Origin: Saccoglossus kowalevskii
Taxonomy: Eukaryota; Hemichordata; Enteropneusta; Harrimaniidae
DNA length: 33,390 nucleotides
Reading direction: 5' to 3'
Assembly (NCBI RefSeq): GCF_000003605.2
Contig: NW_003135342.1
Span: forward strand, 511,334 to 544,723
Part shown: positions 4,490 through 31,081 of the stretch, one piece after another
Layout: the number at the start of each line of letters is the position of its first letter
Numbering within the stretch: position 1 is the stretch's first letter
Position numbers and translations under genes: made by a program
Notes under the pieces: generated by a model
Seen by the model: only the letters and a program-made list of their open reading frames with translations
The model's database searches: none
What the model was told of the DNA's origin: nothing

Positions 4490-5695
4490 AGAATAGCGCA
4501 TTGAAATTGCCATTAGATAGGAAGATGGTCACACAGCCCTGTCATGTAGTTCCATACACGAATATGACTTCTGTGGCAAAATGCACTATGTGTCACAAGT
4601 GCACGAGCACTTGCAATTTGCACTTACAAAAAAAAAAAGTCCGGAGAGACAACAGTGAAAAAATAATTATACAGTACAGATTTAAAACTATGTAAAGGTG
4701 AAAAAAATATCAATATTACATTTAAATGAAATGTCATTAAATAATGTCATACACCTTAAAAGTGATGAATGCTTCCTGCAGTTGACTGATCCACAGTCAT
4801 GTTTAAAAAATAGTTTGCGTCTCAAACACATATTTAGAACATAAAAGTAAATATTGACAAGAATAGAAAGGCAGTCATAAGAAGAATTAACAAATTTGAA
4901 TTTTATATAAAATAAGAAGATCAAGAATAGTTCTCCTATTAGATAAAAGTGGAATGTCAAAACGTTTGCAATAAATAGGATAACATGAAATACTACAATG
5001 CACACGTAATTTTTTACATAAATATTTAACAAATTTGAATTCCACATAGATGAGGGGACCACACCATAGAGCCATATTCAAGAACAGATATGACATAAAC
5101 AAGATACAAAGAAATAATTACAGAAATATCATTAAAGCTATAACAAGAACGTTTAATAAAACCCATAGATTTTAAGGCTCTAGAAACAATAGAATTGATA
5201 TGGCAGGTTAGAAGTCAAATAGACAGCCAAGTCTTTATGATGGAAACTTGCTGTAAAGGTATATCTTTGATAGAATAGTTATAGCTTGAAATAGGTGATA
5301 AATTTACACTTCTCTAAATTGAGTGATAATTTCCAAAGGTCGCACCACTCTACAAACTTATTAAGATCAGTTAGCAAAGTGTGACTGTCAGTTGGAGATG
5401 TAATAGACCTATACAGCATGGTATCGTCAGCGTAAATACTAGATTGGCAGAGATATCAGGGTAGGTGATGTTATTAATATACATAACAAAAAACAAAGGC
5501 CCCAGGAGTGACCCCTGTGGTACACCAGACAATGCGGGAAACCATTTAGACACGTGACCACCCGAAACTACACCCTGCTGCCTATAACTTGGGTACGATG
5601 ATAACCAATGATGTAAACTACCGCAAATACCAAGTTTAAAGGCCTTGTGGAGTAGCAGTGGGTGGCACACAGTGTCGAAAGCGATTCAAATAACC
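4490..5695 (-). mobile_element. Decayed non-LTR retrotransposon (Jockey/CR1-like LINE), 3' part
   Basis: Read on the minus strand. Residues at 5371-5670 include SGVPQGSLLGPLFF, the classic motif of LINE reverse transcriptases. Codons for the catalytic YADD follow at 5423-5434 but in a different frame, so a frameshift separates them. Further on come typical thumb phrases (LEYGSMVWSPH, near 5050-5100), then more frame changes and an AT-rich 3' tail ending in AATGCGCTAT near 4492. The endonuclease and the N-terminal half are absent. The copy is 5'-truncated and dead; the same tail stands alone at 21905-22072. The clade assignment is from motif style only. Confidence 0.8.
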
Positions 5696-6344
5696 ATCAA
5701 GCATTATGAGAACTACTGTATTCACGTACTCGTAAAATGTTGTGGAAAGTCGAAAACCTTGTTAAAATTATAAACCAGTATACTAAAATGATTGATTTAG
5801 GGACATCATTAGGACAAGGTGTGTTCTTGAACCGGAAGGGCAAAATTATGCAATAAATTAACTAATAATCAGATTTTCTAAAATAATTGTATTTTCATTT
5901 TGAAACTATATTGTCATGAATCCGATTTCCTCGTCAGTTGGAATAAATTTTAAATTGTAATGAATATCAAATTTCCGATTTTGTCACGTTAATCTTTTCA
6001 CCACCAGAATTGTTTCATATATTCTTTAATATTACTGGGAACGAGCCCTAATTTTGGAGCCAACTGACAAACGTTTTCACTCAAAACATTGGGCTATTTT
6101 TGCCCCAATTTTTTAAAGGAAAATGCAGACTATAAACGGGATAGGAAAATAGGGAACTGGTGGAGAAAAGGATAAACCACGATTTAAAAAAAAATGCCAA
6201 TCTGATCAAACAATTATAGATAAATGTGAAAAATTTTGGTCTATAATTTTGGCGGGAAAACATGTCGTTCAGCTGAAAGTGTCAAAGTCTATTATGTGTA
6301 ACAAATTAAGTTTTGCAATTGAACCATTAGAATGAATCTTTGAT
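5696..6344. other. Non-coding stretch
   Basis: AT-rich, with no splice-bounded open frame and no repeat recognised. The only listed-size open frame, 60 codons on the minus strand at 6081-6263, is low-complexity and phenylalanine-rich. Confidence 0.4.
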
Positions 6345-6509
6345 TTAAAGCGGGAGGATCGTCACCTGCGCACGCGCGAGAATTGAGTCCCAAGCGACGA
6401 TAACAACACACGCTAAAAACGCAAAGTCTCATGGGTGGACGCTTGTTTGTAAACAATGACACGCTATGTTTATCTGACGCATGCGCAGGTTACAACTCCC
6501 CCGCTTTAA
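6345..6509 (-). mobile_element. TTAA-flanked MITE, family 1, complete
   Basis: A 165-bp element with TTAA at both ends and imperfect terminal inverted repeats beginning TTAAAGCGGG. It lies in reverse orientation to most copies in this window. It contains the NRF-1-type 12-mer TGCGCACGCGCG at 6367-6378 and TGTTTAC-like forkhead cores. No coding capacity. The TTAA flank is the known target of piggyBac-superfamily transposases; assignment to that superfamily is inferred. Confidence 0.85.
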
Positions 6510-7393
6510 ACTCTCAAATTGCGAACACAATTGTCCCGCCACGTTTTAACAAGGGCGACACAATAAACACAGAATAATAAGATTGACGTTTTAAAAAAAC
6601 TAATGCAATAACTCAAACAAAGCTACATAAACAAATTACGAGATCAAACTGTAGTGTCAAACTCCATATCTTAATTTGTTCAGGTTGAAACAGTGGAAGT
6701 GGAAGAATGCTTAATGAGTTTGCAAATTAGGTCAAGAAATGTATATCGATTATAACCGAACTCTATTTCGTTTAGTTGTGCGATAGATAGTATTGTCTGA
6801 CAGACACACAGAAACATTCTTCTATGCACGATACGTTCAGCTATAATACCACATTTGTTAACGTTGGAAGAACGGTTAATTGAAGGTCAAAGTAACATCT
6901 TTAAACTCTACATTTACTGGTACCACCCATAACAATGACTCATCACAGACGCTAAAGGTGAAATGAACAACGTCATCCATGTTTAGCCTAAACTCGTAAA
7001 AGGTTTATCAACTAAATCGAACATTTGTTGAAATGACTTCATACACAACACATAAACATATGCATTTTCGGTTTCAAGACAACTGCCACCCCCTCTGGCG
7101 GATATTTACCCCCCATCCCACTGTGTTAAAACTCCACAAAAGTATTAATTTTCAGCCAAAGCATTTTTTTAGTGGGGTGCAGTATTATTTACTAAAGAGT
7201 TCACGATCCATTGACCCCCTACTACTAAATCCATTGAAACAATAGTACACACTTAATCGTTAACGAGACATAACATCAATGACACAATATCAAAGAACAC
7301 AATGTCTGAACAAATTACCAATATTATTGTTCTTTTAATATAGCAAACCATGGTTTGTAAGTGAATAATGCATTCCTCTGATTCCCTGCATGG
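6510..7393. other. Non-coding stretch upstream of gene A
   Basis: No exon or repeat copy recognised. A 70-codon frame at 7033-7245 has no support. The last part probably contributes to the gene A upstream region. Confidence 0.35.
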
Positions 7394-7438
7394 TGACGTC
7401 AATAGCTAATCAGGTCGATGATGACCGGGGATAGTCCC
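7394..7438. promoter_or_regulatory. Gene A proximal control sites: CRE and kappaB-like
   Basis: TGACGTCA at 7394-7401 is a perfect cAMP-response element (CREB/ATF). GGGATAGTCCC at 7428-7438 has kappaB half-sites around a non-standard centre. Both lie within 80 bp upstream of the TATA box at 7471. The motifs are seen directly; use by CREB/ATF or Rel factors is inferred. Confidence 0.4.
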
Positions 7439-7470
7439 TTAGAAGTAAATATAACCTAGTATTGGGAGCC

Positions 7471-7478
7471 TATAAAAA
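7471..7478 (+). promoter_or_regulatory. TATA box of gene A
   Basis: TATAAAAA lies 80 bp before the ATG at 7551. A start near 7500 would give a 5' UTR of about 50 nt. It is the only good TATA box close to this signal-peptide exon. Confidence 0.6.
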
Positions 7479-7550
7479 CCAGTTAGCTCTCGCTTTTCTT
7501 TTAGACAAACATTGCTCAATTACAGGTGGTTGTTACTCTACAAGTGCAAA

Positions 7551-7617
7551 ATGATTCCAACGTTGGTGTTTCTTTGGATGGAAGGAATGATCTGTCTGTT
7601 TGTATCAATATTTCTAG
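7551..7617 (+). CDS. Gene A exon 1: signal peptide
   Basis: Encodes MIPTLVFLWMEG followed by ten hydrophobic residues, then stops after one nucleotide of the next codon at a consensus donor (CTAG|GTAAGC). The phase-1 exit matches the entry of exon 2. The start was chosen as the ATG nearest downstream of the TATA box that opens a hydrophobic leader. Confidence 0.6.
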
Positions 7618-9981
7618 GTAAGCTATGTGTTTGGCATTTTAAACACGAACTTCTTAAAGTTTTATTGCCATCGACATTCTGTTTAATGCTTAGGGCATGT
7701 TAAAGAGCGGTAGTCGTTGCTCCGCGTCCTGTTCGATACGGGAATCAGAGCAACGTATACAACGAGTGTAAAATACATTGTTTGTTTACATGAAATTCGA
7801 ACAGGTGCTGTGCGACGACTACCTTTAAGTAATACGTGTATGCGCAATATAATGAAAGCAATAGTTTCGGTTATTCGCAAAACATCTGTGTTTTTGCAGA
7901 TAGCATAAATCATTTCCATGGATTCATTTCTGATTGAGTTTTCAGCTCTGTTTTGTCATGACGTCACCGAGTTTTTTGTTCGACGACCAAAGCCTGCAGG
8001 CCATTAGCCAGGAATTTGCAACTGCCAGTCCCCCAAAAAATCAACATCATGAAAATGTAGATGGTTTTGGATAGATTTTGGTAAAATTATCAAACAACAA
8101 TTGGGAAAAAAACAAAACAGAAAAATGGGAAAAAGTTGCCAGTCCAAAATCAAAGTTGTCTGTCCGTTTGGTGGGTCGACTGGTGGTGGCTGGCTATTCA
8201 TGTTATCGCAGCATCTGGGCGAAATTACGTACGTGTTTGTCGATCCCCATGCGCAGGTGACGACTCCCCTGCTTTATTTGACCCCAGAAGTATACTACTT
8301 CTTTCTCTCATTTGCAATTTACACATAGCTATGAAGACCAGTTTAAAACGTGGGAGTCGTCACCTGCGCATGCGTCAGATGGCCATAGCGTGTCGATGTT
8401 TACAAACAAGCGTTAACCCATGATCCTTTGCGTTTTTACCGTGTGTTGTTATCGTCGCTTGGGACTCAATTCCCGCGCGTGCGCAGGTGACGACCCTCCC
8501 GCTTTAAATTTAGATTTCATGAGAACCCACACTATAAAGCAACACGACTAAAACAAATAATTACTCACATCCCTGTAATTAACAAATTTTAGAATCATAT
8601 TTTTTGTTGCATTCAACAGTAGCTGCCGGGACAAGGGCTGATTTAACACCCAAACGTCCACTCAGGCTAGCACCTGACAATGTTGTCTACACGGCAACTC
8701 TCAATCGTCCATTCACTATGGCGGTGTCCATGGCAGTCGATAGACTGCGTAGAACGGATGATATCATAGTGGGGGTGGAGGATGCAGACAGTGTGTTAAT
8801 TCGCAGATACAGCGACAGAGACGATAAAGAATCGTGCACACCCAGCAACTGCGTGTTTGTGCACCGCAGCAGGAAGCACGTTACAGTGGAATTCCAGCTA
8901 TTGAATGTGAAAGAGCCGGATTTAGGCCCCCGGCGAATTGACATTTTGATCAAACCGAGGATGAAACGGAGAAATATGACTCATGGCATTGGACATTTTA
9001 CCTTACAGACGAATGGTAAGGATCTCCCACAATTCAAAGTTATAAAGCGCGGTAGTCTCGCGCTGCGCAAGTGCGACATTTGTGTTGATAAACATTGATT
9101 TCCCACAATCCAATGCGTTCTTCAAATGGAAATCACAAGTATGAGGTTTGACCTGGGCGCGTCTTGCACTGATTACCGACGGTGACTCCTTCGATACCTT
9201 CCAATCACATGAAAATTGCCTAATTAAAGCTTGGAAACGTCTCAGTTTGTACTCGTTGATCAGTCAAAGTCGCCACCTTTGTTTATATGAGACCCACATA
9301 TCTCGCACATGCGCAGCGCGATGACTACCGCGCTTTAATATACCATATACAGTAACACGACTTGTTAAGGCCACCGGCGTGACGATCGGTCATATTTTTT
9401 TATTTTAATTTTACCTTTATTCTTTGTTCACAGAAACCGAAAAGAAACGTTCCTGTTTATAACTGGGGCACACGTAATTGCACTACAAAGCTGTTACAGG
9501 CCATGGGTTATGTTATGATCACCATCGTAAGGAGATTTGACTTAAAAAAACAAAAAAACAGTATTATAAAAAAAAAACATTCGTGAAAAGCCAGTGAGTG
9601 GTTAAAGCGAGGGAGTCGTCACCTGCGCATGCGTCAGATGGCCATAGCGTGTCATTTTTTACGAACAAGCGTCTACCCATGAACCTTTGCGTTTTTAGCG
9701 TGTGTTTTTATCGTCGCTTGGGACTCAATTCCCGCGCGTGCGCAAGTGACGACCCTCCCGCTTTAACTCCAACTCCTTCAAAGGAGCATTAAAGTCCGTG
9801 TGCATGGAACTAATTCATGATATTCATTGAGTATTACAATGTGTTTTTAGAAGTAGCATGTATTCCCTGTCTAATATTTACTATTATACTAACGATAGTT
9901 CCAGTATGTCGAAGTTCGACTTTGTCAAAATCTGCACATAAAGTCAATGCAATGAGGAGCTCAAGAAGACAAACAAGCTGA
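7551..9981 (+). CDS. Gene A: small secreted protein with one atypical Ig-like domain (three exons)
   Basis: Model: exons 7551-7617, 8620-9015 and 9905-9981. Spliced length is 540 nt, giving 179 residues and a stop, and both introns are phase 1. Residues 1-22 form a hydrophobic leader. Residues 23-154 hold one Ig-like domain with a C95-x4-C100 pair, an HRSRK motif at 104-108 and DLGP at 123-126; it lacks the DxGxYxC cysteine of a normal Ig domain. The last 25 residues are basic and Ser/Arg-rich with no membrane segment, so the product should be secreted. A TATA box lies upstream and AATAAA 35 nt after the stop. Introns carry four TTAA elements. The domain is paralogous to the one at 19423-19770 near gene B. 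Function unknown; the promoter and neighbours suggest an immune or recognition role (inference). No transcript evidence. Confidence 0.65.
7700..7828 (+). mobile_element. TTAA-flanked MITE, family 2, in gene A intron 1
   Basis: A 129-bp element with TTAA at each end and terminal inverted repeats starting TTAAAGAGCGGTAGTCGT. The internal part (cgtatacaacgagtgtaaaa...catgaaattcg) recurs in the copies at 10095 and 21269 and, decayed, near 12676. Confidence 0.8.
8246..8275 (-). mobile_element. Solo end of a family 1 element
   Basis: CATGCGCAGGTGACGACTCC plus CCTGCTTTA is a clean outer arm of family 1 in reverse orientation, without the remaining 130 bp of the element. It could be a fragment left by deletion, or the terminus of a different, longer element sharing the arm. 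Confidence 0.6.
8343..8507 (+). mobile_element. TTAA-flanked MITE, family 1, in gene A intron 1
   Basis: Complete 165-bp copy ending 112 bp before the gene A domain exon. The left TTAA is followed by a slightly altered arm (AACGTGGGAGTCGTC), while the right arm is intact. A perfect NRF-1 motif lies at 8474-8485 and a TGTTTAC core near 8397-8403. Confidence 0.85.
8620..9015 (+). CDS. Gene A exon 2: atypical C-x4-C Ig-like domain
   Basis: 132 codons, phase 1 at both ends (acceptor ...TTCAACAG|TA, donor GAATG|GTAAGG), the classic symmetric Ig-domain exon. It starts with a basic linker (TPKRPLRLAPD), then beta-strand-like segments. The core reads C-TPSN-C-VFVHRSRK-HVTVEF and ends NVKEPDLGPRRIDILIK. 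The position of the D-x-G turn matches an Ig F strand, but the following cysteine is missing and the only cysteine pair is C-x4-C. About 40% of positions match the 19423-19770 domain by eye. No family name is claimed. Confidence 0.7.
9040..9338 (+). mobile_element. TTAA-type element, family 3, in gene A intron 2
   Basis: About 299 bp. The left end is ttataaagcgcggtagtctc (flank altered to TTAT) and the right end ...gatgactaccgcgctttaa. The termini match families 1 and 2 but the inside is different (contains gacctgggcgcg and ttccaatcac). A second, 5'-truncated copy is at 22966-23217. Confidence 0.75.
9602..9766 (+). mobile_element. TTAA-flanked MITE, family 1, in gene A intron 2
   Basis: Complete 165-bp copy with intact TTAA on both sides. 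Perfect NRF-1 motif at 9733-9744. The internal TGTTTAC of other copies has changed to 'ttttttacgaac'. Confidence 0.85.
9905..9981 (+). CDS. Gene A exon 3: basic C-terminal tail and stop
   Basis: The acceptor TTCCAG|TA is preceded by a textbook branch-point sequence (actaac) about 16 nt upstream. Entry in phase 1 gives V-CRSSTLSKSAHKVNAM then RSSRRQTS and TGA. It is Ser/Arg/Lys-rich with no hydrophobic stretch, so there is no membrane anchor. It is short and has no conserved domain, so the exon rests on splice sites, phase and the poly(A) signal that follows. Confidence 0.5.
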
Positions 9982-10015
9982 CTATTGTTGTGGCCTGAGA
10001 TGCAACGATCAATGC

Positions 10016-10021
10016 AATAAA
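10016..10021 (+). terminator. Poly(A) signal of gene A
   Basis: AATAAA 35 nt after the stop codon at 9979-9981, a suitable distance for a short 3' UTR. Confidence 0.5.
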
Positions 10022-10094
10022 AATGTAAATTGTGATTTAGGCCAGTTAAAAATGTGCGCCGATTTTAGGAAACAAATTGGCAAGATATATTATC

Positions 10095-10209
10095 TTAAAG
10101 GGCGGTGGTCGTCGCGCCGCGTTCTATTCGATATGGGACTCAAAGCGACGTATACAACGCCAGTACATGAAATTCGAACACGCGCTGCACGACGAACACC
10201 GCCATTTAA
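10095..10209 (+). mobile_element. TTAA-flanked MITE, family 2
   Basis: A 115-bp copy just downstream of gene A with TTAA at both ends. The left arm is TTAAAGGGCGGTGGTCGTCG. Compared with the 21269 copy it has lost the 'aaaatacattgtttatt' middle. Confidence 0.8.
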
Positions 10210-11610
10210 ACTTTGCTGTATATACACTGTATATTTACTCATATTTATGTAATTTTTGCACAAGGTGTAAATGTTGAAACACTATTTTTTTTTTCGTGAA
10301 TATAATTTCATAAGTGTGAATATTGTGTACATATTATATTTATATTAAATTAATTTATACTATTTTTAATTTATTATTATTTATTCACTTTTTACTAATT
10401 TACGTACAGGGAATCGAAGATACATAAATTATCGTACAGCCATACAAACTTGTTGTATCGTGATACGACCAACCGTTGTATTTGTTTAAACATCGACTTA
10501 GATATTTACAGTTTATATGAAAGAACATTACAACATTTTCAACTATACAAATTTTAAGCTTCGTACATATACATAATCTTAAATGTTCGACTGCATAGGC
10601 AAAACACACGTCCTGCCATGGAAAAATATTTCCATAATATTAATCGAGGTTGGAGACTGATATTTAATTATTATGATATTATACAATACTGGAACGTTAA
10701 CTACCGTGGCCTCGCTTATTACTGTGATCTCGAAATGGCTTTGAAAATAGGTGAAGCACATTTAAGCGACCTGAAAGCTTGCAGTGACGACATTAGGTTT
10801 TTCCCAAGAATGAATGACTGACTGGAAATTCCCGAATAGGAAGTAAGAACTATACAAGAGGCTATTTATATTACACACAAGCAAAATAACAGGATATAAT
10901 CAGAAACTGTCAATATTTATTACCACACTCATTCCCTATAATCTCTCTACAATATATACATATAAAGTTGGTTCCCTTGGCAACAGGTGTCTGTCAGTAC
11001 TGCCCCGCGTTGGCGTCCGCCATTTTTTTTACTGACCTTGGTGACCTCGATAGAATATGTCATTTCTTCCGCCAGTAGTCGACCAATTTCATCCTATTTT
11101 GTCTTGCCAGTCAGATCTGAATACTCCCAGTGTCCTGAGTGCCCAATCGTCGCGATGTTCCGACTTACAGAATTGTATATTGTGTGTAATAAATGAAACA
11201 CCACAACCCGTGTTGACGAAAAAATGACAGTCATTGACCGAGACTCCACTGATTCGATTAAAAGGGAAGTTATGCATTCTATACAAAGTCATGCGGCGTG
11301 GGCAGCACTATATCCAATCTTCACGAGCGATTACCAAGTTAAGACGAACATTCGATTGACAACAATTAACCTATTTTGTTGTAGCTGTTCTAAAAACCGA
11401 GACGTACACACAGTTCCTAATGAGGTCAAGGGTTATCAGTGTGCATGCGCGTTGTCAGTGTAAGAAAAGACGTGCTCCCGGTTTATCCCCCGTTTTACCG
11501 CAATAGAATCGTAAACATTGCACAAATGTCAGATAATCAAACGACTTTGTTAAATTATAACACAGCTGCTGAATAACTTTGAACACTAGTGTCATAACTG
11601 GATTCATAAC
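10210..11610. other. Non-coding stretch
   Basis: AT-rich, with short unsupported open frames on both strands (for example 10618-10821, 10987-11196 and 11224-11463). None has flanking splice sites in a consistent phase or a known domain. A kappaB-consensus match at 10824-10833 has no promoter beside it. Confidence 0.4.
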
Positions 11611-11829
11611 AGTGGCGGCAGCACATGGAGGGGGGGGGGGGGCAGAGGCCCGGTCGCCCCCTCGAAAATCAAGCTGAAGCCTTTTGTGTCAGCAAACGTC
11701 GCCCCTCAAATTGCAGGAAATAGCGTTTCAGAGGATCTAGATTTCAAAATTTCTAAGGGAAAGTATGCTCCTGGATCCCCCTAGTGAACAGATCTCGCCC
11801 CTTCATGCAACATTTGGTGCCGCCACCTC
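11611..11829. mobile_element. Small inverted-repeat element with GGCGGC ends and a G13 tract
   Basis: The left end AGTGGCGGCAGCACATGGAG followed by 13 G faces the right end CCCCTTCATGCAACATTTGG plus TGCCGCCACCT in inverted orientation. The interior is non-coding. A related end (C13, then CTCCATGCAAAATTTCGTGC and CGCCGCC) occurs at 15897-15937, supporting a repeat family. No clear target duplication was seen. Confidence 0.5.
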
Positions 11830-12675
11830 AGCATAAACACCATTACGTGTTAACTACGTCAGACAAGCATGTCGAGTTCGTCATGTTCATTTGAAATACA
11901 ACAACACAAGGCCAGTCTATAAACATAGCCCACAACGATTAGTTTAGCCATATTCAATATATTCACGGTGCATCTATACGTTTCCTAAGTATATTGAGTC
12001 CATGATCTATAATATCACTATTGTATCATACACGTTTGTTAAAACGCTGTTCCGTAATTAATGACTTATAAACTAGAAAATCATGTTTACACAGTCAGAA
12101 ATATATTTGACTACCCAGCTTAACGAAATAACTATCTTACAACTTATTCTTACTGAAAGTTATCGAACAAGATTTCGAGACACGGGACTCTTAACCGACG
12201 GTAAATTGAATGAAATTCATTTTTTATGAATATTTAACTCCTGATTTAAATATATCATACTTTTGTACATTTTTTTAAAATAGTAAACACTTTAATTACA
12301 CTGTGATCAGTAAAGTGAAATATATTTTTGATGTCAGCCAGCTATCTCAATGATGCATGTTAATTGTTTTTTGTAATATGCTGGCCATTCGCTCTTGTAG
12401 GATAACGTTCGTTATTGCCTTCTCTTTCGTTCACGTTCGTTCAGTCCTTTCAATGCCTTCATATTGATCGCAAACATAAATGATACTTGTTCTTATGGCC
12501 GAGAAAAATGCATTCACTGCATACAGGCATTAATACAAATTAAATACACACGAGAATACTGAAACTGACATAATATTCATGACTATTCCCGTAAAATAGT
12601 AATTATTTAATTAACATTAATTATTGTTTAGGTGTATGCGAGTGTTTGCAATGGAACCCCTGACTATTAGCAGTT
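11830..12675. other. Non-coding stretch
   Basis: AT-rich; no exon, repeat or promoter recognised. Confidence 0.35.
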
Positions 12676-12779
12676 TAGTTGGTGATATGCTTCGCGTTGC
12701 ATTGAAATTAGGCTCCGTGTACAACGTATACAACATGTAAAATACAAAATTGTTTTACTTGGAATTCTAATGCGCAACA
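12676..12779 (+). mobile_element. Decayed family 2 element
   Basis: The internal part cgtatacaacatgtaaaatac...ttgttttacttggaattc aligns with the family 2 interior, but both arms are badly eroded and the TTAA flanks are gone. This would be the oldest copy in the window. Confidence 0.45.
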
Positions 12780-13669
12780 ATTAATTAATCAGTACACGAG
12801 ATTCATGTAATCCCGAATTTTACGATAACAGCGTATGTCGCTTAGAAGTTTTGATAATGTGCAATAATGGTTACACATATCCATATACATGTACATTTCA
12901 AAACATGCGATTTTGTCAGATTCATGGATAGAAAGGTTGTAGCAGAGTATCTATCATATTGTAAGCTTTTCGAGTATTAATGAGTATTATTATTTCGAGT
13001 ATTAAGTATCTATGCAACAGTCGTTCCCATGATTACATTGATTAATAAAACTGTTTTTTTTTCATTAAAATTCGCTTTCTCGCGTCTCTGGGCATATACT
13101 CGGAAAACAAAAAAATGTTTGATCCAAATCACCTGGAAAGCTAGTCCTATCGATCTTGCGTTTTCAAAAAAATAAAACAAAGCCAACCAGGTAAAAAAAA
13201 CGATCAATTTTCGTCCAAACTTCATGAAGTTTTAGATAATAAAGTTTATGGCAAACTGCCGGTAATAATGACCAAAGGAGGTAAGACATTAAATTTCTAA
13301 AACAAAATCATATGTATGGTATATAAAAATCATGTAAATCCTGAACTGGAATTGTTAAATATAGCGTTTTATTTATATAATATCAAGTGGCTAACTGGCA
13401 AGGTTAACGTGCCATAAAGAGCAGAAGTAAAGTTTTTTTTAAAGAATATATCAAGAAATATTACGTCACAACAACGTCATTAATTGTATTCTTTGTTAAT
13501 CGGTGTGGGAGGCGGCAAATAATTACAATTAGTTATGCATAAATCTACTTGTTGAAATTCAGAGGCGTTCCCAAAGTACCTTTCGCCATGATGTCACGTG
13601 TTCAGAGTAAACTACATAAAAATAAGAGAAGTTTACCCAAATAAATCAGATCGCCCTGGTATCGTGGTC
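12780..13669. other. Region upstream of gene B
   Basis: No coding exon found. Just before the gene B ATG are an octamer-like ATGCATAAAT near 13540 and a weak TATA-like CATAAAAATA near 13615. Neither is strong enough to annotate as a promoter alone. Confidence 0.3.
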
Positions 13670-13715
13670 ATGGCGTTTCACTTAGCATTTGGTGTTTATG
13701 TGATCGCTTTTATAG
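13670..13715 (+). CDS. Gene B exon 1: signal peptide
   Basis: Encodes MAFHLAFGVYVIAFI and one nucleotide of the next codon, then the donor ATAG|GTGAGT. It is short, hydrophobic and phase 1, built like gene A exon 1. The next exon is 2.8 kb away, so the link rests on phase and order only; an intervening small exon cannot be excluded. Confidence 0.5.
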
Positions 13716-16700
13716 GTGAGTACTATGTACCATTTCAGCATTCAATTCACCCGTGGGGCGCTTTCTCTTTTTTTGTTATCATTTTTGTCTCTACGTATAA
13801 ATTTGTATCAATTGCGTGACTCGTCTTATGACAAAAAAAAAAAAAAAAAACGTTCGATATTATTTATTATCCTGGGTATTCAATTAAAGCATCTAGAAAA
13901 ACATGATTGAGAAATATAAAATAAATCCTAAAACGAACATGTCGAATTCAAAACTAGCTTTGCGATTCAGAACTTGTATATTAATATCACGCTGCGATAG
14001 AAGAGAACCTTTTAAAATATTGTTTGTTCCGTCAATTGCAGAAGTTAATTTAGAAAAAAAACAACGCAGTTACTCGTAGACTACAACGAGAGAGAGGTTT
14101 CTTATTTGATAGTTGTATGCTACATTTTAAGATAGACATTATTCAAAACACACTGAACCAATCGAATTTACCGTCTTGAATAATTGACTTAAATATTAAA
14201 AATTAAATTGGTCTGTCATTTCAACACATCGCGTTCGTGACAAACTGCATTTTCCATAGTAATAATATTACATACGAAACCACATGACGCTCTTCTCTCT
14301 GGTGGTCGCCATGGCACTGCGATATGGCTGACAGACCCATAAACTCTGCTTTCGGTTATCTCAAGCAATGCTGTCGTCTCTATTTAATCAAAATACAATA
14401 CTATTTTAAATACATCAGTGTATCAGTGTCATGAATTCATCATTATCATTGGACGAGACCATTTTTAATGTATGCGAGTCATGGTCACGTGACATAATGC
14501 ACAGCGGCACCCATGATCTTCTAATTTAGGTCTTAAATTACAATAAGCAAAAATTAATAATAAAGTTTGGTTTTAAATATGTTTTATTCTGGAAAAAGGA
14601 ACTGAAAAGTTAAACATTTAGATATACAGGAAGTGTGATTACAACGGGAGGTGACTTTATTTAGTAAGCCAAACTAAAGTAATACACTGTCGTCTGCTCT
14701 GGTACCTACGAGCGTGCATGACTGCTTCCAAGGTCAGTGCTTGCGCGATTTAGTGTGTACGGCGTTGTTCGAAAACATTTTTGAAATATGTTTATTATAA
14801 ATGCATTAAATCAATTGAATTCATTGCAAAACAAAAAAACAAACAAAATTTTGACCATGGTTGTCGTAATCGTAATGTTATAATTCATGCCATGTATGCG
14901 CTGTTGCAAGTTACTTTTCTTTCCCCAACATTTTTCTCATGTTTCTGTAGTACTTTGAACCCGAAACGGTTTTCTCTTCGAGGTCAATTCTGAATTTTGT
15001 GAGAATTAAGTCGGGTGAAAACATGAATGAAAATTTAGTCAAACGAGACTCGTGCTAACATGCATAAAAAACATATACTCTTTTATATGGGATCCTGTGA
15101 ACAGCATCCGTAACATACGTAGATTCATTGAAATAATGACGTATGTTGTGACGTAATAATTTTATCATTCAATTACAATGCATGCAATCAAAACACAGTT
15201 AAATCAAACAAAACCAAAAAAAAAATAGTCAACACTTGAGGGCGTTATTCACATTCGATAACAGCATCAGTGACCGTTGAGGAAGATTAAAACTACGTAT
15301 TCTGAGGGCGCTGCCACTAAAAAAATAAGCGCCCAGTTCAACTGTCGATGACAGGCAATAACCAAACCACACCACTCACGTAACAATAATTGTAGTGATG
15401 ATTGAAGAGACTACACTTTTTCACTGTGTCTCAATGATATACTAAGTTAAAATAATACCAAACATACAAAGAATGTAATAACTAATTTAGGTGCTGAATA
15501 AAATAGTTATCGAGACACATGATATGTTGACTGGATGTTAAGCAGGGGAATCGTCACCTGCGCATGCGTCAGATAGCTATAGCGTTTCATTTTTCACAAA
15601 CAAGCGTCTACCCGTGAGCCTTTGCGTTTTTAGCGTGTGTTGTTATCGTCGCTTGGGACTTAGATTTATTCCAAAAATGTGAGTAGATAATATTCTATTC
15701 GTGTACTTGTCATTTAGGTGGCGTATGCTTATACATACTAATCGGCAAAAAAAATGGTCCATAACAATCATCTTGGCATATTAAATATTAATTTACTTAA
15801 ATAATGATATTATTCGAGTAAAATAATTATTAGAAAAAAATTTAAGGGAGAGATGCTTAATAAGGTTGCGCTTTCGGTGCGAGGTTGGTGAGCAGACCCC
15901 CCCCCCCCCTCCATGCAAAATTTCGTGCCGCCGCCTATGTCCTTACTAAACAAGACGACAGTTAGATTGGAACTCGGTATCACGGCTGCGCTCGTCAGCA
16001 TATAAATTGTTGCAGAGACAAAATCCACCCCAGGCGATACGAAAAAACATTTTAGCAGACGATCGCCACAACGATAAAACACGCTATAATTCACGCTTAA
16101 GTTGTTACTCCTTAGTGTGTACATGTTCTTGTATACCTTCCTATAGGTTTGACCCACGACCGATGAAATTGATATGCGACACATCTTCTGAAATTAAACA
16201 TGCGTTAGACGCTATACCATAAACAATAATAACTGATTGTACTGCTTAGTTGCACGACGGTGACCAGACACGAAAGGTTTTACCTGACGCACGGCAGAAT
16301 TTGTAGTTCTTCACGCGTTTCAATAAATTTATAATACAAATTAGTCTTATTCTGTCAAAAAACAAGAAGCGGGCTTTTGAAAATGAATGTCATTCTGTCA
16401 TTGGCATTTTGCCATTGATATTAGTGGCAACTTACTCTGCACCCACGACACATACTACAAGTCGTTTTGCGCTGCTCAAATAATTTTAGATACTCACGTT
16501 CTTTTTATTTATATTGCTGCTATAGAAGCCATACTGTTATATGGAGAGTCTTCAGCCGCTCTGGCAAAAGAATCCCAAACAGCAATAGCGGGTGATGCAT
16601 CTGTTCATCTGCCATGTTATTACGATAAACCAGCTGGATCGGTAGACGTTGGCAATGTATGGCTGCAGTGGAGGAATGAAGAACTTATTCTCCTTGAACT

Positions 16701-19444
16701 GAAACTGTTTAGTTCAAGTTTGGCGAGTTATCTTAGTGTCGAAAAATACAGCGTTGACGATGATGGGCGCATGGTCATACACAATGTTACAATCGAAGAC
16801 GAAGGAAAGTACTTGTGTCTGGTAAACTGGGATATGAAAGACTATTACATAACGCAGCAAACAGAAGTGAATTTGAGAGTGTTAAGTAAGTACCGCAATG
16901 TTTTTAATTGTTATTTTGTGACGGTTTATTCAGATAATTCAGGCTGGTATGCTGCGCATATTAATTAGGTATCTGTCAACCGCTTCCTAATACAAGTACA
17001 CGAGCTGCAAGTCATAGAATTCTAAATGTGTTATGAGTCAAGCAGATAAAACGCATCTTAAATATTCGGAATTGAGGCATTCGAACATCTAATAACCTGA
17101 AACAAAAACTAGTAAAACTATTTGTTATCTTATTATCTGGGACCTTTACCTAAATATTCGATTTTGAATTGGAATAGTTTTCCTTTTTTTAAAGGGTTCA
17201 CAGATTTGTTTGTGTGTGTGTTCATAAATTTGTTGAGTATGCACTCAAAGTATGCACTCAGACAGTACGCCGCGCATCGACCTCCGCTGCGCATCGGTCA
17301 ATACTTCCGCTGTACTGTCTTCGTGCATACTTTGAGGTATTCATATTCAGATCCAGCCAAACCTGTACATGACTGAGATCGGAAATAATAGTTGGTTTTA
17401 TCTCCTCACTGATGTTTTTAAAGCGAAAAATAAAGCAATACCATTCACACAATTTTACATTAGGAAGATTTGTAATATAAATTCTAAAACAAATTCAGGT
17501 GCTCTTTCCCTTTTGTCTTTTTACATACATAACTAACCGAAGTTCAAATTGCTTTTTGCAAACAAAAGTGCACCCTATGTACACAGGAGTGCTGTACGAT
17601 GCACAACACAGTAGTTAGTAAGACATTACAGATCCCTCAATGTGTCTTACACTCCAGCCATTTCTTCTCGCGATACACTATAATGCAACAGTAGGTGATT
17701 TTCCGTTTAACTGCGAGATCTCGCGAGATGCATGAAAGACGAGCGTCGAACGTCTGCCGCAAAAATCGAACGATTTGATTTTAAACAGACAGAGGAATAT
17801 TGCTTTCGAATACCCTTACTTAATTGAAATTGCATATCATCAAATGTGTACAGCACATTATTAAGCATGGAAATGTCCCCCAAAATATGTTCGCGTTTGT
17901 CGAATTCCACGCGATGATTGACGCCACTACGACGCTATGACCTTCGTTTGTCCTATTTTTACGTTCGATTTCACGCATAACGCGTGATTCTCGCAGTGAA
18001 TGGAAAATGGTCTATTATATTAGCGATTCAAGTACAATTTTAAATGAGCACCATTAACTAATTATCAATTAACAATCTATTGGGCAATAAACACTGATCA
18101 ATTAGGATCTAACTAACACGCACGCATTATAAGTTGATTCTCACATTCTTTAGATATCAACTGAGTATCAACTGTTCACTCTACAGGTCCAAAACGTGAA
18201 GTTTATCTACATTTAGAACCGTCCGGAAAGAGACAAAACGTAACACATGGCACAGCCATACAACTGGACCAGTCTAAGGACCACGTGATCGAATGTAGTG
18301 CAGCTAACGACGACAGAGAAACACAACTCGTATGGGACGTTCAACCGTCGATATTGAACACTGTAATCGTTTACGGCGAAGAGGATATAAAGACCAGTAG
18401 GCTGATAATACTGGCTGACAATGAAACAGGAATAATTACATGCACGTGTTCCTTGAACCGGCCTCCATTACCACCAATGACCACGAGCATCACAGTGGAA
18501 TTGATAAAGCCATCTGAGAAAAAGACTAAAAGTAATTATTTCCACAATGTTTCTTAATTTTTTTTCAAATTCAAATTTATGTATTGATTTTTCCATGTCT
18601 CATTTCCATTAATTGCATTTTAGTTAATTAGTTTTGAAATTTATACCTGAAGTAATGACATGGTTTACATAGACAAAGATGTTTCAAGTAAAAAAGAAAA
18701 TTCGCCCCTCCCCCTCGATGTATGTTGGTTTTCAGCTGGGAGCCAGCTAAACACGTTTTGGAACTTTCTCTTTTGTGTTACGTATACCACTAAAATAAAG
18801 ATTTTCCGTTTCCGACATGGCAAATTCTTTCGTGTTTTTTTTCTGTGAAAACAATTGATTTTGATAAGAAAATTAAAAAATACGAAATGTATTTTTTATA
18901 TTCACATCAATGATAATTTTCATAATCAGCGTTTACACAAGAATATTACAGAAATATATTCTCAATATATTTGCATTTTATTTGTCTTGAATTATGACAG
19001 AAAAAAGCTGAGTGAAATCACAAAATATGTGGAGTGCTCAACAGCTCACGTGAAGACTAACATAAATAAATTTGGTTTTGAAAATACTGTATATTTCTGC
19101 ATAAAAACGAAGAAAAAATCACAATATCGAAAGCGAAAAGTCTTTATCGTTTTGTTCTATATGTTCACTCGGCGACTGTGCGTATAACCAACCAAATCAT
19201 ACATATTAATATATGTCAATATCAGCTGATACGGTTTTATTTGCATAAATATAATATAATAATTACTAAATATTATCTAATAAATATCATATGCATATCT
19301 AAACGGTTACTCTAATTGGCAGAAAATACAGAAAATAGACGGGATAGGAAAAAACGGCGACGTAGGCCAGCAGATTCATCCCATCCGAAACGACGACGTA
19401 AGCCAGCCAATTTACACCACAGAATGTCACCATTTACACTGTGA
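13670..19444 (+). CDS. Gene B: Ig-superfamily protein (signal, V-set, C-type, basic exon), possibly incomplete
   Basis: Model: exons 13670-13715, 16526-16885, 18187-18531 and 19323-19444. These add to 873 nt, 290 residues and a stop, with all three introns phase 1. Residues 1-15 form a hydrophobic leader. The V-set domain has C46, W61/W64 and DEGKYLC at 107-113. The C-type domain has C172, W185 and C221. The tail is arginine-rich (DRKKRRRRP, KRRRKP). The architecture matches B7/VCBP-type surface or secreted immune receptors, but no orthologue can be named. The last exon ends in TGA at 19442-19444, while an intact atypical Ig-like domain lies in another frame from about 19423. The real protein may therefore run on into or past the gap; no membrane segment was found before it. 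Confidence 0.6.
13833..13850 (+). repeat. A18 homopolymer
   Basis: An uninterrupted run of 18 A in gene B intron 1. Lengths of such runs are often misassembled. Confidence 0.9.
13851..15537. other. Gene B intron 1, no further exon seen
   Basis: AT-rich. A 70-codon frame at 14781-14993 has no splice support. No repeat copy was recognised before 15538. Confidence 0.4.
15538..15661 (+). mobile_element. TTAA MITE, family 1, truncated on the right
   Basis: Starts with TTAAGCAGGGGAATCGTCAC and follows the family through 'cgcttgggact', then breaks off. The right 40 bp, including the NRF-1 arm and the right TTAA, are missing. It lies in gene B intron 1. Confidence 0.75.
15897..15937. repeat. C13 tract with GCCGCC end, related to the 11611 element
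   Basis: Thirteen C, then a CCATGCAAAATTTCGTGCCG phrase and CCGCC, closely matching the right end of 11611-11829. Only one end was found here. Confidence 0.45.
16526..16885 (+). CDS. Gene B exon 2: V-set immunoglobulin domain
   Basis: A 360-nt exon, phase 1 at both ends (acceptor TGCTATAG|AA, donor TTAA|GTAAGT). It shows a B-strand cysteine (VHLPCYY), tryptophan in VWLQWRN, and the F-strand signature NVTIEDEGKYLCLV. The cysteines are 67 residues apart, the usual V-set spacing. A G-strand (TEVNLRVL) closes the domain at the exon edge. This is the most secure domain call in the window. Its closest relatives by look are B7, VCBP or nectin-type V domains; no ligand can be predicted. Confidence 0.85.
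17235..17342. mobile_element. Fold-back element, 108 bp
   Basis: The left arm GAGTATGCACTCAAAGTATG...ACAGTAC is the inverse of the right arm GTACTGTC...CATACTTTGAGGTATTC. The arms are about 34 bp around a GC-richer centre containing two copies of 'gctgcgcatcg'-like sequence. It lies in gene B intron 2. It would form a long hairpin in RNA or single-stranded DNA. No clear target duplication. Confidence 0.7.
17343..18186. other. Gene B intron 2, no further exon seen
   Basis: No open frame with splice sites and phase; the reverse-strand frame at 17707-17910 has no support. Confidence 0.4.
18187..18531 (+). CDS. Gene B exon 3: C-type immunoglobulin domain
   Basis: A 345-nt exon, phase 1 at both ends (acceptor CTACAG|GT, donor CTAAAA|GTAATT, a weaker donor). 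It reads VIECSA, then LVWDV 13 residues later and GIITCTCS 49 residues after the first cysteine, the C-W-C pattern of C1/C2-type Ig domains. Two potential N-glycosylation sites are visible (NVT near residue 153 and NET near residue 214). It ends in a proline/lysine-rich linker (KPSEKKTK). Confidence 0.75.
19323..19444 (+). CDS. Gene B exon 4: arginine-rich tail in the spliced frame
   Basis: The acceptor GGCAG|AA takes the phase-1 reading into KNTENRRDRKKRRRRPAD, then SSHPKRRRKPANLHHRM and a TGA at 19442-19444. The exon contains two imperfect copies of about 42 nt (aaacggcgacgtaggccagc and gaaacgacgacgtaagccag), so it expanded by tandem duplication. The matching linker in gene A is basic but shorter. 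Relative to gene A, the stretch between AAACG and AATG is 8 nt longer (39 against 31), which throws the downstream domain out of frame. Confidence 0.45.
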
Positions 19445-19770
19445 CTACAGGACGATCCTTCACTATTCCCGTATCTGTTGAACTTGAATGTCGTCTGAAA
19501 AAGAGAGACTATATTACGGTACTAGTGGAACGAATGAATGGTGAACTGATTCAGAAATTCAGCGACAAAAAGGGGTACGGTCAATGTGAGGAAAACACCT
19601 GTATCTTCATCCATCGCGGGAGAAAACGTATCACTATTGAGTTTAAAATTTCAACAGTCCGTGAAGAAGACATTGGACCCGGACATGTGTCGATATCGGT
19701 GAATAGCAAACGTCACAAAACATCTACGTTGAAGGCCGAAGCGGACATGTATTACTCCCTGCAAACATAG
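19403..19770 (+). CDS. Second atypical C-x4-C Ig-like domain, frame-conflicted with gene B
   Basis: Open for more than 120 codons up to TAG at 19768-19770. From NVTIYTVTTGRSFTIPVSV it aligns with the gene A domain. It keeps C-EENT-C-IFIHRGRK-RITIEF and VREEDIGPGHVSISV, with a second upstream cysteine (ELEC) that gene A lacks. It is not in frame with the gene B exon 4 reading. A poor acceptor at 19401-19402 (CGTAAG|CC) would enter it in the correct phase 1. A GTGAGT donor overlaps the stop (19770-19775). It may be a recently shifted domain, an alternatively spliced exon, or an assembly error. Confidence 0.55.
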
Positions 19771-19805
19771 TGAGTTCCTGTGCTTTATCGTATTGATTTA
19801 AAGGG

Positions 19806-20559
19806 NNNNNNNNNNNNNNNNNNNNNNNNNNNNNNNNNNNNNNNNNNNNNNNNNNNNNNNNNNNNNNNNNNNNNNNNNNNNNNNNNNNNNNNNNNNNNNN
19901 NNNNNNNNNNNNNNNNNNNNNNNNNNNNNNNNNNNNNNNNNNNNNNNNNNNNNNNNNNNNNNNNNNNNNNNNNNNNNNNNNNNNNNNNNNNNNNNNNNNN
20001 NNNNNNNNNNNNNNNNNNNNNNNNNNNNNNNNNNNNNNNNNNNNNNNNNNNNNNNNNNNNNNNNNNNNNNNNNNNNNNNNNNNNNNNNNNNNNNNNNNNN
20101 NNNNNNNNNNNNNNNNNNNNNNNNNNNNNNNNNNNNNNNNNNNNNNNNNNNNNNNNNNNNNNNNNNNNNNNNNNNNNNNNNNNNNNNNNNNNNNNNNNNN
20201 NNNNNNNNNNNNNNNNNNNNNNNNNNNNNNNNNNNNNNNNNNNNNNNNNNNNNNNNNNNNNNNNNNNNNNNNNNNNNNNNNNNNNNNNNNNNNNNNNNNN
20301 NNNNNNNNNNNNNNNNNNNNNNNNNNNNNNNNNNNNNNNNNNNNNNNNNNNNNNNNNNNNNNNNNNNNNNNNNNNNNNNNNNNNNNNNNNNNNNNNNNNN
20401 NNNNNNNNNNNNNNNNNNNNNNNNNNNNNNNNNNNNNNNNNNNNNNNNNNNNNNNNNNNNNNNNNNNNNNNNNNNNNNNNNNNNNNNNNNNNNNNNNNNN
20501 NNNNNNNNNNNNNNNNNNNNNNNNNNNNNNNNNNNNNNNNNNNNNNNNNNNNNNNNNNN
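19806..20559. other. Assembly gap (754 N)
   Basis: Unknown bases. The last known bases before it, from 19798, are TTAAAGGG, identical to the first eight of the family 2 element at 10095, so the gap may begin inside a repeat. Any further exon of gene B, such as a membrane anchor, could be hidden here; no open frame should be read across it. Confidence 0.95.
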
Positions 20560-20868
20560 TTTTACGACATCAAGCTGTCGTCACACTGTCACGTTATATT
20601 TACACTAAAGAAATGCAAGCCACATAATCCCATTAAATACAAAGAAGACAGACGCCACCTGTATGCCAAAGATATGTCAGCATTTCTTCTAATGTTTAAG
20701 ATGCTACAACTTTATTATACATATATATATTTTTAAAGAATGTTTATTATTGTATTAATGAGCCAAATAATCCCAAATGGTTGTAGTAGTGTGTTATTTC
20801 GTGTTGTCATTACATACTACTTATACATGTAATATACTATGCAATAACTGTTGTATACGATGAATAAA
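20560..20868 (+). other. Possible 3' end of a transcript with poly(A) signal
   Basis: A 58-codon open reading from the gap edge to the TAA at 20734-20736, then AATAAA at 20863-20868 followed by a GT-rich stretch. Composition is lysine/histidine/tyrosine-rich with no domain, so it could equally be untranslated. It might be the 3' end of gene B, but the gap prevents a link. Confidence 0.25.
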
Positions 20869-21060
20869 TATGGTATGTTCTCAGTCACCTACCAGATGAT
20901 ATTCTTGTAGCACGTACTAAAATATTTTATTTAAAAGAATATATATAACATGTCTGTGATTTGAAATATGGTTCAAATTTGTTGGCTATAAAATTATTAC
21001 CCATTCAAAGTTAAAGATATATTATTATTATTGTATACCTTTGCATTTTAAATATTTTAA

Positions 21061-21207: not shown

Positions 21208-21236
21208 TGAAGCGGGAGGGTCGTCACCTGCTTTAA
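21208..21236 (+). mobile_element. Family 1 deletion remnant (about 29 bp)
   Basis: TTGAAGCGGGAGGGTCGTCA CCTG is directly followed by CTTTAA. It looks like one arm joined to the last bases of the other, with everything between removed. It lies 33 bp before a complete family 2 copy. Confidence 0.55.
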
Positions 21237-21268
21237 TTTGGCCCAAAGCTCTTTGAATTCCCATATAA

Positions 21269-21401
21269 TTAAAGCGTGGCAGTCGTCGTGCCGAGTCCTG
21301 TTCGATATGGGCCTCACAGCGACTTATATAACCCGTGTAAAATACATTGTTTATTTACATGAAATTCGGACACGCGCTGCGCGACGACCACCGCGCTTTA
21401 A
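21269..21401 (+). mobile_element. TTAA-flanked MITE, family 2, complete
   Basis: A 133-bp copy with TTAA on both sides. The arms TTAAAGCGTGGCAGTCGTCG and CGACGACCACCGCGCTTTAA are strongly inverted. This is the best-preserved family 2 copy. Confidence 0.85.
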
Positions 21402-21627
21402 TATTAAGTGACATTTGATATATTCCTGTACAACCATGGCGCAGGTCTAGTTTAGAATACAGATGATATGACACGGTAAGCGTCTGGCATTACGCCTTAC
21501 GATTTGTGTGTGTTCAAGGAGTGCTTGGAGATGATGAATACTAGCTTATGACGCCACTCATTTCAACTGGTTACACGAAAACGTGTTATAACTTTATAAA
21601 TTCAACTTACTTTATATACCAATTGTA

Positions 21628-25935: not shown

Positions 25936-27074
25936 GTCAAAAATCTGTGAAAATAAATTCCATACAAAATACCCAAAAAGTCTTTTCAGCGAAAATTAGT
26001 TCTAACTAAAATAAAATATTTTACCACAGTTTTTTTCATGCGTGTTCAAAAATTTGCTTGCGGCACGTAGCTAATAAAAAACGTTGTCCATTTGGTCCAA
26101 AAAATATCCAGAAAAAAAATGACAAAATGCATAAAATTAGACAAAATGTGGCGCCAAATATCGTGCTCGAAGGGTTAAGGCATTTATACTCCCTTTGTAG
26201 TGTGATGTGCTGATGTATTCATCAATGTGAGGACATTGGTTCAACCACCTGTTGCTCCTAACTAGTGGTAAAATAAGAAGATGAACATTCAGTCCGCTCC
26301 CATTAGACAATATAATAGCCAATGCCCGTTCAGCTGACGGATAAATATACTTACAAGTATTTGCCCATAGTACACACATTTTCACAAAACTGTGATCGTC
26401 AAGAATGCAGTATCTTGGCTTTTTATCGTTAATCTGTTCTTCACTACACAAGCCATCATGTTTTGTACCTTCTAGAAACCACTTATTAGTACCTTACCCT
26501 GGATCATCTAAAAGCCTCCTTGTTATCATCGTTTCATTCCCCAAGAAATTCTAATATCCTTTGCACGTAATATATACCTACTTAATTAGCGTCTTTCAAA
26601 TGTAAGTACAATAGATTCTAATTCTTCCTGTTTCGGTTTGTGTGCAATCTGTAATAACGATTTTGGACAGGTTTGAAAAGCTTAAGGCTGATGCTATTCA
26701 CAATTTTGACCAAGTAAATTAGAAAGACAGGAACACTAGAAACCCATTTCTTGACGAAATTAAATGTTTAAATTAGCATATAACTGTTTATTGCAGCATT
26801 GGACCTCGTTATACATCGTTCTAGGTGTGTACTACAAGTAAAATACAATTCAATGTATTAACCTGGATATTCATACAGTTGTGCACTTCACAGTTAGACC
26901 AGGGTGATTTTTCGGATGATTTTTTCAAATCTGATATTGTCGGCCCAAACCATTCTCTGAACCAGCAGTGTCTGTGATGATACTATCTACAATCGATTAT
27001 TTTAAAACATTTCATGAGATATGTAGTCATTTGCGACTCGTGAATAATAAATATTACTATAGCAATACGAATAT
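25936..27074. other. Non-coding stretch
   Basis: Contains a 104-codon reverse-strand open frame (26137-26451) with no domain I recognise. Its 3' part reads 'ttaacccttcgagcacg', a phrase common in dispersed invertebrate repeats. I do not call it a gene. Confidence 0.35.
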
Positions 27075-27231
27075 TCCCCGGAAACACCTGTGCATGCGGC
27101 AAACGACCATAGTGTGTCGTTGTTTACAAACAAACGTCTACCCGTGAGCCTTTGCCTTTTTAGCGTGCGTTGTTTTTGTCGCTTGGGACTCAATTCCTGC
27201 GCGTGCGCAGATGACGATCTCACCACTTTAA
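27075..27231 (+). mobile_element. TTAA MITE, family 1, diverged
   Basis: The left arm is eroded (ccccggaaacacctgtgcat), while the interior and right arm are clear, ending in 'caccactttaa'. TGTTTAC core near 27119-27125 and an NRF-1-type TGCGCGTGCGCA in the right arm (about 27198-27209). Confidence 0.75.
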
Positions 27232-28480
27232 AATGTGAAACAATGTTTCTTTTATATAAATAGAGACTGGTCGTCGTAATCAAAGTTAGCTGCCCATTAG
27301 GTATAGCGATAACTATCGTAGATGCTAAATGTACATTCGACTCCTATGCCTTAGTTTTCCCCACGCTTTAGTAGTTATGTGAGCGGAAATGTCCACCCAC
27401 ACTGAGAACAAGAACAGAACACGGGATAGACGGCTTGACCAGCCCTGTGACTGAAGGTCTCATGCCACTAATTAACCAATGGCTGCTCGTAGTCAATTTA
27501 AATGCCCAGCAAGAACCAATGAAATTTTTTAAATATTATTTTTCTCAGGTGCTCCCTGTTTGAGGGCGTAATCACCTGGGTGAGACCAACATGTGGTCTT
27601 TTGTTTACTACTTAGCGGCTGTGTACCTGTGGGTTTATTCTGTGTGTTAATGGATGTTCTAATCTTGGTGTTTTTCCAGTGATTTCTCTTGGTGCAATCC
27701 AAATACAGTAGGTGTGTCTTGTTTACCTGAGATTTGCAAGAGTTTGAGCTGGCCAACATGTTAGTTTTTTTCATATGGTTGATTACTGGCATGTTGATTT
27801 CCCATTTTTGAGCCATATTTTCAACTTTCTTCGTCATTTTCATATAGCAATCTCGTCATATGTTAACATTGTCGTCTATGGAAATTCAATTAGTGGTATG
27901 AGCCCAGAACCGCTGTTCTCCCGGCCATGATTGGAGCAGATTTGGCATGTTGGCAGAATGTACTCATCTTTCACTGCCGAGCAAACCAGTCCACCCCGGG
28001 AAATGAGCAGCCAATTTAACTAAGGCTGAGGAAGACGCAATATGATCCGTTGAGCCAACAATTCGGTCGTAAATCTATGAGTGATGCAACTGCAGTACAG
28101 TAGTGATTTGTGTGGAACTGAGGCAAATCAAATTGAGGCGTAGAATAAAAAGCAGCAACATGAGGGGACATGTTGATTGATGAATGTATATAAGCTAGGG
28201 GGCCGTATATCGGAAATACTTCAACATTCTAACAAATTGACATCACTATTTGAGTACTATTTTAACTGCCTTAACGATTTAGAAAAAACAATAAAAATTT
28301 ATTGAGCTTTAATAATATCGTTTTGTTCAGGACTTATTCTACGCTTTGGAATAATAATATAAATTCACATCGCCATCGTTACTCATTGTGTTTGGCAAGA
28401 ATCCATAATACAATGATTTATTTTTTCTAGATGTTTAACGTGATAATAATATTAAAAAAAAAGGACGCGCATAAAAAACA
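27232..28480. other. Non-coding stretch with a possible weak inverted repeat
   Basis: The phrases 'ctcatgccactaatta' (27463) and 'attagtggtatgag' (27889) face each other about 430 bp apart and may be ends of an old element. The 104-codon reverse frame between them (27529-27843) is lysine/asparagine-rich without a domain. Confidence 0.3.
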
Positions 28481-28720: not shown

Positions 28721-28849
28721 ATGGCATTATTTTCTGTTCTGTTTGTGGCTATAGTGCTCGTCGTCTCCGTGACAATGTTGACCTGGGTATATTACCGAAG
28801 TTGATACTATAATTATCGTCCCTTGCGTCAATATGAAAACAATGATCGG
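28721..28849 (+). CDS. Hydrophobic tail segment, copy 1 (ends WVYYRS stop)
   Basis: In frame from ATG 28721, a run of about 24 mainly hydrophobic residues ends in TMLTWVYYRS and TGA at 28802-28804. A phase-1 acceptor (GGCTATAG|TG at 28754/28755) lies inside it, so it may be either an ATG-started 27-residue peptide or a terminal membrane-anchor exon. A GTAAGT donor follows at 28850. The last 22 codons align without gaps to 31013-31081, with many synonymous differences. The host gene is unknown. Confidence 0.4.
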
Positions 28850-30475: not shown

Positions 30476-31012
30476 GGTAGGTAACTTTTTGTGACAAGAG
30501 AACGAAGAAGCTGGACAGCGAGGGGTTACCTCGGCTGACAGATGGAACAGATGTATAAAGCCAAAAATGTGAGCGGAATGAAACGAGAATAGACAACGGA
30601 TTTAGTATGTAAGAATACGTCTATATGTTGAATTAGGAAACAAGTTTAGTGTATATATTCTGTTAGTAGTGGGTACCATTACAACAATAAATCATAGATG
30701 TATTAAAAGTGCTAATTCTACACATCCTTGCCAGTACTCACATATCCCCGTCTTTATTTCATACACTTCACTTCATAAGTGAGTATCAGTGGTATACTCC
30801 CTAAGCAATTGAAAGGTTAAAAAAACAGCTGTGGCTGTCAACATGTTTTGTTCACTAAGCGCTCTCTGCAATTATGATACACCCACGTTCAATGTGCCCA
30901 CTAACATAACGTGTCAAGGTTTGCCACGTCGAATTAGTAAACATCATATCCAATATAACCGATCAAATCACTCAGCTCACTCCAAAAATAAAACAAAAGA
31001 GTTTTTTTTCAG

Positions 31013-31081
31013 GTTCCGTTTGTCTCAGTCGTTCTCGTTTCTGTCGCGACCATGCTTGTATGGGTGAATTACAGATCATAA
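31013..31081 (+). CDS. Hydrophobic tail segment, copy 2 (ends WVNYRS stop)
   Basis: After a T8CAG acceptor (ends 31012), 22 codons and TAA encode VPFVSVVLVSVATMLV then WVNYRS. There is no ATG in frame (a stop lies at 30989-30991), so it must be spliced in or be a relic. A second AG at 31027-31028 would enter in phase 1. It pairs residue by residue with copy 1. It looks like the membrane anchor and very short cytoplasmic end of a surface protein. The upstream exons were not found. Confidence 0.4.
   Translation, partial: VPFVSVVLVSVATMLVWVNYRS

Follow-up and report, generated by a model that had tools for sequence, protein, structure and literature searches.

We analyzed a stretch of 33,390 nucleotides of the Saccoglossus kowalevskii genome (positions 511334-544723 of the source contig; hereafter the window, within which all positions are numbered). 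The window holds two candidate immunoglobulin (Ig) genes, A and B, both on the + strand, and each carries an exon for an Ig V-type domain without the canonical cysteines. Both gene models were built from splice-site reading alone, from which we infer the exon joins.

Gene A has three exons. Exon 1 (7551..7617) contains the ATG and a candidate signal peptide with a matching hydrophobic profile, MIPTLVFLWMEGMICLFVSIFL, and ends at a phase-1 donor, GTAAGC. Exon 2 (8620..9015; acceptor cag/TA, donor ATG/GTAAG, phase 1 at both ends) encodes the V-type domain, in which a C-x4-C pair is formed by domain residues Cys72 and Cys77. Exon 3 (9434..9462) follows in frame after the acceptor tttgttcacag (pyrimidine fraction 0.82) and encodes the tail ETEKKRSCL, with one extra Cys, and the TAA stop. 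A TATA-like box (TATAAA, 7471..7476) lies at most 200 bases before the ATG, and a candidate polyadenylation signal, AATAAA, is found at 10016..10021, besides an ATTAAA at 9788; all are on the + strand and were called from their sequence. The joined exons give a single open frame of 163 amino acids. As modelled, the product has about 140 residues past the signal sequence, an isoelectric point of 9.9, two N-glycosylation motifs, one odd Cys in the C-terminal tail and no transmembrane stretch downstream of the domain.

Gene B begins with an ATG and another signal-peptide-like candidate, MAFHLAFGVYVIAFI, in exon 1 (13670..13715), which ends at a phase-1 donor, GTGAGT. Exon 2 (16526..16885) encodes a canonical Ig V-set domain with Cys30, Trp45, Trp48 and Cys97, numbered along the protein of this exon; it matches Pfam V-set at 2.5e-06, scoring 28.1 bits where the cutoff is 26. 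Exon 3 (18187..18531) resembles an Ig domain in its C-W-C pattern (Cys36, Cys85 and Cys87), and a Pfam search with it gave no match. All introns of gene A, and the first two of gene B, are in phase 1. Exon 4 (19403..19769, start uncertain) encodes the paralogue of the gene A domain, again without the canonical cysteines.

The boundaries of gene B exon 4 were examined by joining four candidate starts to exon 3. The start at 19403 is in frame and retains the whole homology, but its acceptor is poor (pyrimidine fraction 0.41). The start at 19451, also in frame, has an acceptor of 0.59, but the first strand of the domain is lost. With the start at 19423 (0.59) the domain is out of frame and contains stops. 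The start at 19323 (0.53), a possible phase-1 acceptor, leads through an Arg/Lys-rich open stretch on the + strand, NTENRRDRKKRRRRPADSSHPKRRRKPANLHH (19323-19422; its part before exon 4 is 19323..19402), which lies directly 5' of the domain in another frame; the domain is again out of frame and a stop is met. All four candidates fall below 0.65, the top-tenth threshold among the + strand AG sites of the window, whereas the remaining four acceptors of genes A and B have fractions of 0.65-0.82. A reading of the same DNA from sequence alone, made earlier (the sequence-only reading), had placed the two exons at 8620-9015 and 19423-19770. Open frames exist at the first position and at the second locus, but the motif P-x-N-V, common to A and B, places the start of the gene B homology upstream of 19423, and a start at that base breaks the frame. 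The end given as 19770 coincides with the third base of an in-frame TAG (19768-19770), which overlaps a GTGAGT donor beginning at that base. Exon 4 could start in phase 1, and its exit at this donor is in phase 2. A run of 754 N follows (19806..20559), in which any further exon would be hidden. An assembly error, an unusual exon and a decaying exon are all possible explanations of these boundaries.

Paralogy, predicted fold and missing core residues

Between the two domains, 34% of 120 aligned positions are identical (E 1e-26). Their Smith-Waterman score is 199, while the best of 500 shuffles of one sequence reached 43, which upholds the paralogy claimed earlier. Among 118 aligned codons, 51, 45 and 89 differences fall at codon positions 1, 2 and 3, and where the residue is identical the same codon is used in 12 of 42 cases. 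The NG86 method gave a nonsynonymous divergence (dN) of 0.60 and no finite synonymous divergence (dS). The significant alignment together with the third-position excess demonstrates long constraint at the protein level on both copies, which are open frames and paralogues. When positions 7401-10100 were compared with 13501-21000 as DNA, neither exons nor introns of the two gene regions aligned, and the alignments consisted of a dispersed repeat and short matches.

Structure models and superpositions predict, with good confidence, a V-type beta sandwich of two sheets that includes strands C' and C'' for both domains, the C'' strand of model B being reduced to a one-residue bridge. The top structural matches of both are V domains and span nearly the full length, so the Ig-like fold that had been proposed is borne out by prediction. 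All motifs that had been named as shared are present in both domains, including the D-x-G in the F strand. Pfam gave no family for either domain at E<=10, in agreement with the earlier statement that no named family was recognised; neither a named family nor a non-Ig fold emerged from Pfam and the structural matches.

The D-x-G-P is retained in the F strand, but the Tyr site is occupied by Arg in A and Gly in B, and the Cys site, as placed from the D-x-G, by Ile106 (A) and Val95 (B), as expected from the earlier claim that the F-strand Cys is absent. The B-strand Cys site, assigned manually from where strand B lies, holds Val35 (A) and Val23 (B). There is no Trp in either domain, strand C included. 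The only cysteines are 72 and 77 in A, and 29, 61 and 66 in B. The sequence-only reading had the B-strand Cys missing from gene A, which is correct; however, Cys29 of domain B, which was probably taken for the B-strand Cys of that copy, lies beyond strand B (19-26 in the model), and therefore the canonical pair is absent from both copies. In the models, the C-x4-C pair (residues 72/77 of A and 61/66 of B) occupies the C''-D edge: it spans the element preceding strand D, a short strand in A and a one-residue bridge in B, and the start of D itself. The pair probably forms a disulfide which, being away from the B-F site, would be an edge staple at most and no core substitute, and the view that the pair stands instead of the Ig disulfide is not supported.

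PMC12051499 describes canonical Ig domains as having in common the B- and F-strand cysteines, the Trp of strand C and the Tyr corner, with CD2 as an exception that lacks the disulfide. With that precedent, disulfide loss in a V fold is already known in itself. Domain 1 of CD2 is likewise a V domain without the B-F disulfide, and its structural match to the domain described here has 16% identity. The Ig V-sets (PF07686; CTLA-4, NKp44, PILR, TREM2 and the V domains of the T-cell receptor) differ from the present domains, which have no B-F disulfide, C-strand Trp, F-strand Tyr or Pfam match. The CTLA-4/CD28 type is the top structural match of domain A, but gene A as modelled has no membrane stretch after the domain and no canonical B-F disulfide; CTLA-4 has a stalk Cys, to which the lone post-domain Cys of gene A is comparable. 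Part of the TREM/NKp44/PILR group has an additional disulfide linking strand C to C', whereas the models place the pair described here at the C''-D edge. In gene A as modelled, the predicted Ig fold is carried by a symmetrical phase 1-1 exon of a presumably extracellular protein; gene B exon 4 can start in phase 1 and leaves in phase 2.

Relatives and other features of the window

The genome-wide search covered 572 Mb in 4830 contigs, with only the best candidates scored. Queried with domain A, it returned exactly two places, both inside the window. No third copy was found with a profile of both domains in the window and 100 kb on each side, although an exon spanning a cut could escape, because the flanks were searched as 10 kb pieces. 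By comparison, the Alr allorecognition family of Hydractinia comprises 41 genes according to PMC11999971, against two copies here from one search; this comparison is by description only. Used as a genome query, the V-set exon 2 of gene B matched its own locus and, weakly, three others (best E 0.003).

Among PDB sequences, the matches were three GTPase RAD chains (E 0.91-1), which were treated as chance. A scan of IMG/VR with the two-row alignment gave 49 pattern matches, none of which was confirmed, and tblastn of domain B against phage records gave no match. The model of domain A had 60 matches at E<=0.001 among predicted viral protein structures. Of the 50 of these that were listed, 19 are nameless; the rest comprise phage proteins and, from adeno-, pox-, herpes- and other DNA viruses, proteins that are Ig-like or membrane-bound. 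TM-scores normalised by the query were 0.34-0.61 for the viral proteins and 0.45-0.64 for the PDB list.

On another contig (L024:220-2235, - strand) an uninterrupted, receptor-like open frame of 671 amino acids has several Ig domains (in Pfam, Ig_3 in three stretches, I-set in three and V-set in one) and a hydrophobic stretch seen by eye. Its tyrosine motifs VIYAQV, LMYAEL and VTYAEL resemble immunoreceptor tyrosine-based inhibitory motifs. About 55-57 kb upstream of the window, an uninterrupted frame of 544 amino acids (L007:3387-5018, - strand) matches an amino acid permease (Pfam AA_permease_2, 1e-39).

Also on the + strand, within the window, are two short open frames of hydrophobic character, at 28721-28804 (27 residues) and 31007-31081 (24 residues). 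Their C-termini are alike (..TMLTWVYYRS and ..TMLVWVNYRS; 15 of 24 residues identical, tblastn 2e-08), and both are followed by GATCGGTAAGTT. Neither has a Pfam match at the cutoff, and the first has no PDB match. They could be membrane micropeptides, with a putative likeness to the C-terminal half of sarcolipin.

Copies of a short repeat whose ends resemble gcgggagtcgtcacctgcgcatgcgtcagatggcc occur in both orientations at about 6295-6540, 8282-8548, 9598-9789, 15542-15679, 27063-27260, 32240-32390 and 33282-33390. They probably represent a non-autonomous DNA transposon. A second repeat family (gtcgtcgcgccgcgt..gttcgatatggg..) is found beside genes A and B at about 7704-7905, 10099-10249 and 21211-21408. 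When ten other open frames of the window were compared with Pfam, only a reverse transcriptase fragment (5371-5685, - strand) came near the cutoff (RVT_1, 9.1e-07, 29.2 bits against 29.6).

Possible origin and role of the domain pair

We consider it likely that the two exons are copies of an Ig V-type domain without the core pin, in which Val and Ile are packed in its place and the C''-D edge is probably stapled. The core pin comprises the B-F disulfide, the C-strand Trp and the F-strand Tyr corner, and packing of Val and Ile would have replaced it, while the C-x4-C disulfide probably staples the C''-D edge. The domain may have passed from one gene to the other through exon duplication, as Ig modules commonly do. 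We regard it as a divergent member of the V type, related to a widespread protein module and not a new fold. Gene A would encode a small basic secreted single-domain protein, possibly a dimer through its lone C-terminal Cys, and gene B a protein of at least three Ig-type domains with the paralogous domain as the third. Contacts could be made by the basic hairpin between strands D and E, F-x-H-R-x-R-K, which is conserved, and analogy with other secreted and modular Ig proteins makes recognition of an extracellular protein or glycan the most plausible function.

Several observations weigh against this interpretation. Models A and B derive from the same two sequences and are therefore not independent, and three of the five models of domain B have a predicted local distance difference test score (pLDDT) of 70-74. 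When profiles were compared with each other, neither of the other two Ig domains of gene B matched, so the Ig assignment depends on predicted structure. The B-strand site was set by hand. The proposed contact surface is weak, because identity from the C-x4-C to the D-x-G-P (15/32) is not significantly concentrated relative to the whole domain (41/118; p 0.07). The models of genes A and B were read from splice sites, and the in-frame acceptors of gene B exon 4 are either weak (0.41) or cut the domain (0.59).

There is a substantial possibility that an animal Ig family containing the pair has been described or annotated before, for example in InterPro, PANTHER or a transcriptome paper. The search extended to Pfam, PDB sequences and openly licensed papers, and exon 3 of gene B, although Ig-like, likewise goes undetected by Pfam. 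However, Pfam has no match, PDB sequences contain none that is meaningful, and no such domain was found in the titles and abstract openings returned by word searches of openly licensed papers, some of them aimed at Hydractinia, which is weak evidence of absence. It is unlikely that these are relic copies whose canonical cysteines disappeared by drift, with gene B exon 4 as a pseudo-exon. The weak in-frame acceptors, the out-of-frame open stretch before the exon, the TAG at 19768-19770 and the gap that follows would fit such decay, but both copies are open at 34% identity with a third-position excess, which argues for long constraint on both; moreover, the joins at 19403 and 19451 are open, and gene A is one continuous frame. 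It appears very improbable that the domains are a non-Ig beta sandwich, such as a lectin or cytokine-like fold, convergent with Ig V. Sequence profiles give no connection to Ig and the canonical core residues are absent, as convergence would have it; in contrast, the top structural matches are V domains at near full length, the D-x-G lies in the F strand, the exon of gene A is phase 1-1, and gene B contains a V-set domain.

The divergent V-type domain without the core pin may further define a lineage-restricted Ig family, although this extension is doubtful: the pin would have been lost in a common ancestor, and the C''-D staple and the basic D-E hairpin kept, in secreted single-domain and multi-Ig formats. 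If so, the small protein could be a soluble partner or decoy for the ligand of the larger one. The case is clear-cut: a profile library misses an Ig domain because the residues on which such profiles key are gone, and a structure model built from two sequences detects it. If the pattern holds across species, it would provide a natural test of V-domain stability without the disulfide. It would also add a small secreted Ig protein, as predicted for gene A, to the candidates for recognition and immunity in invertebrates.
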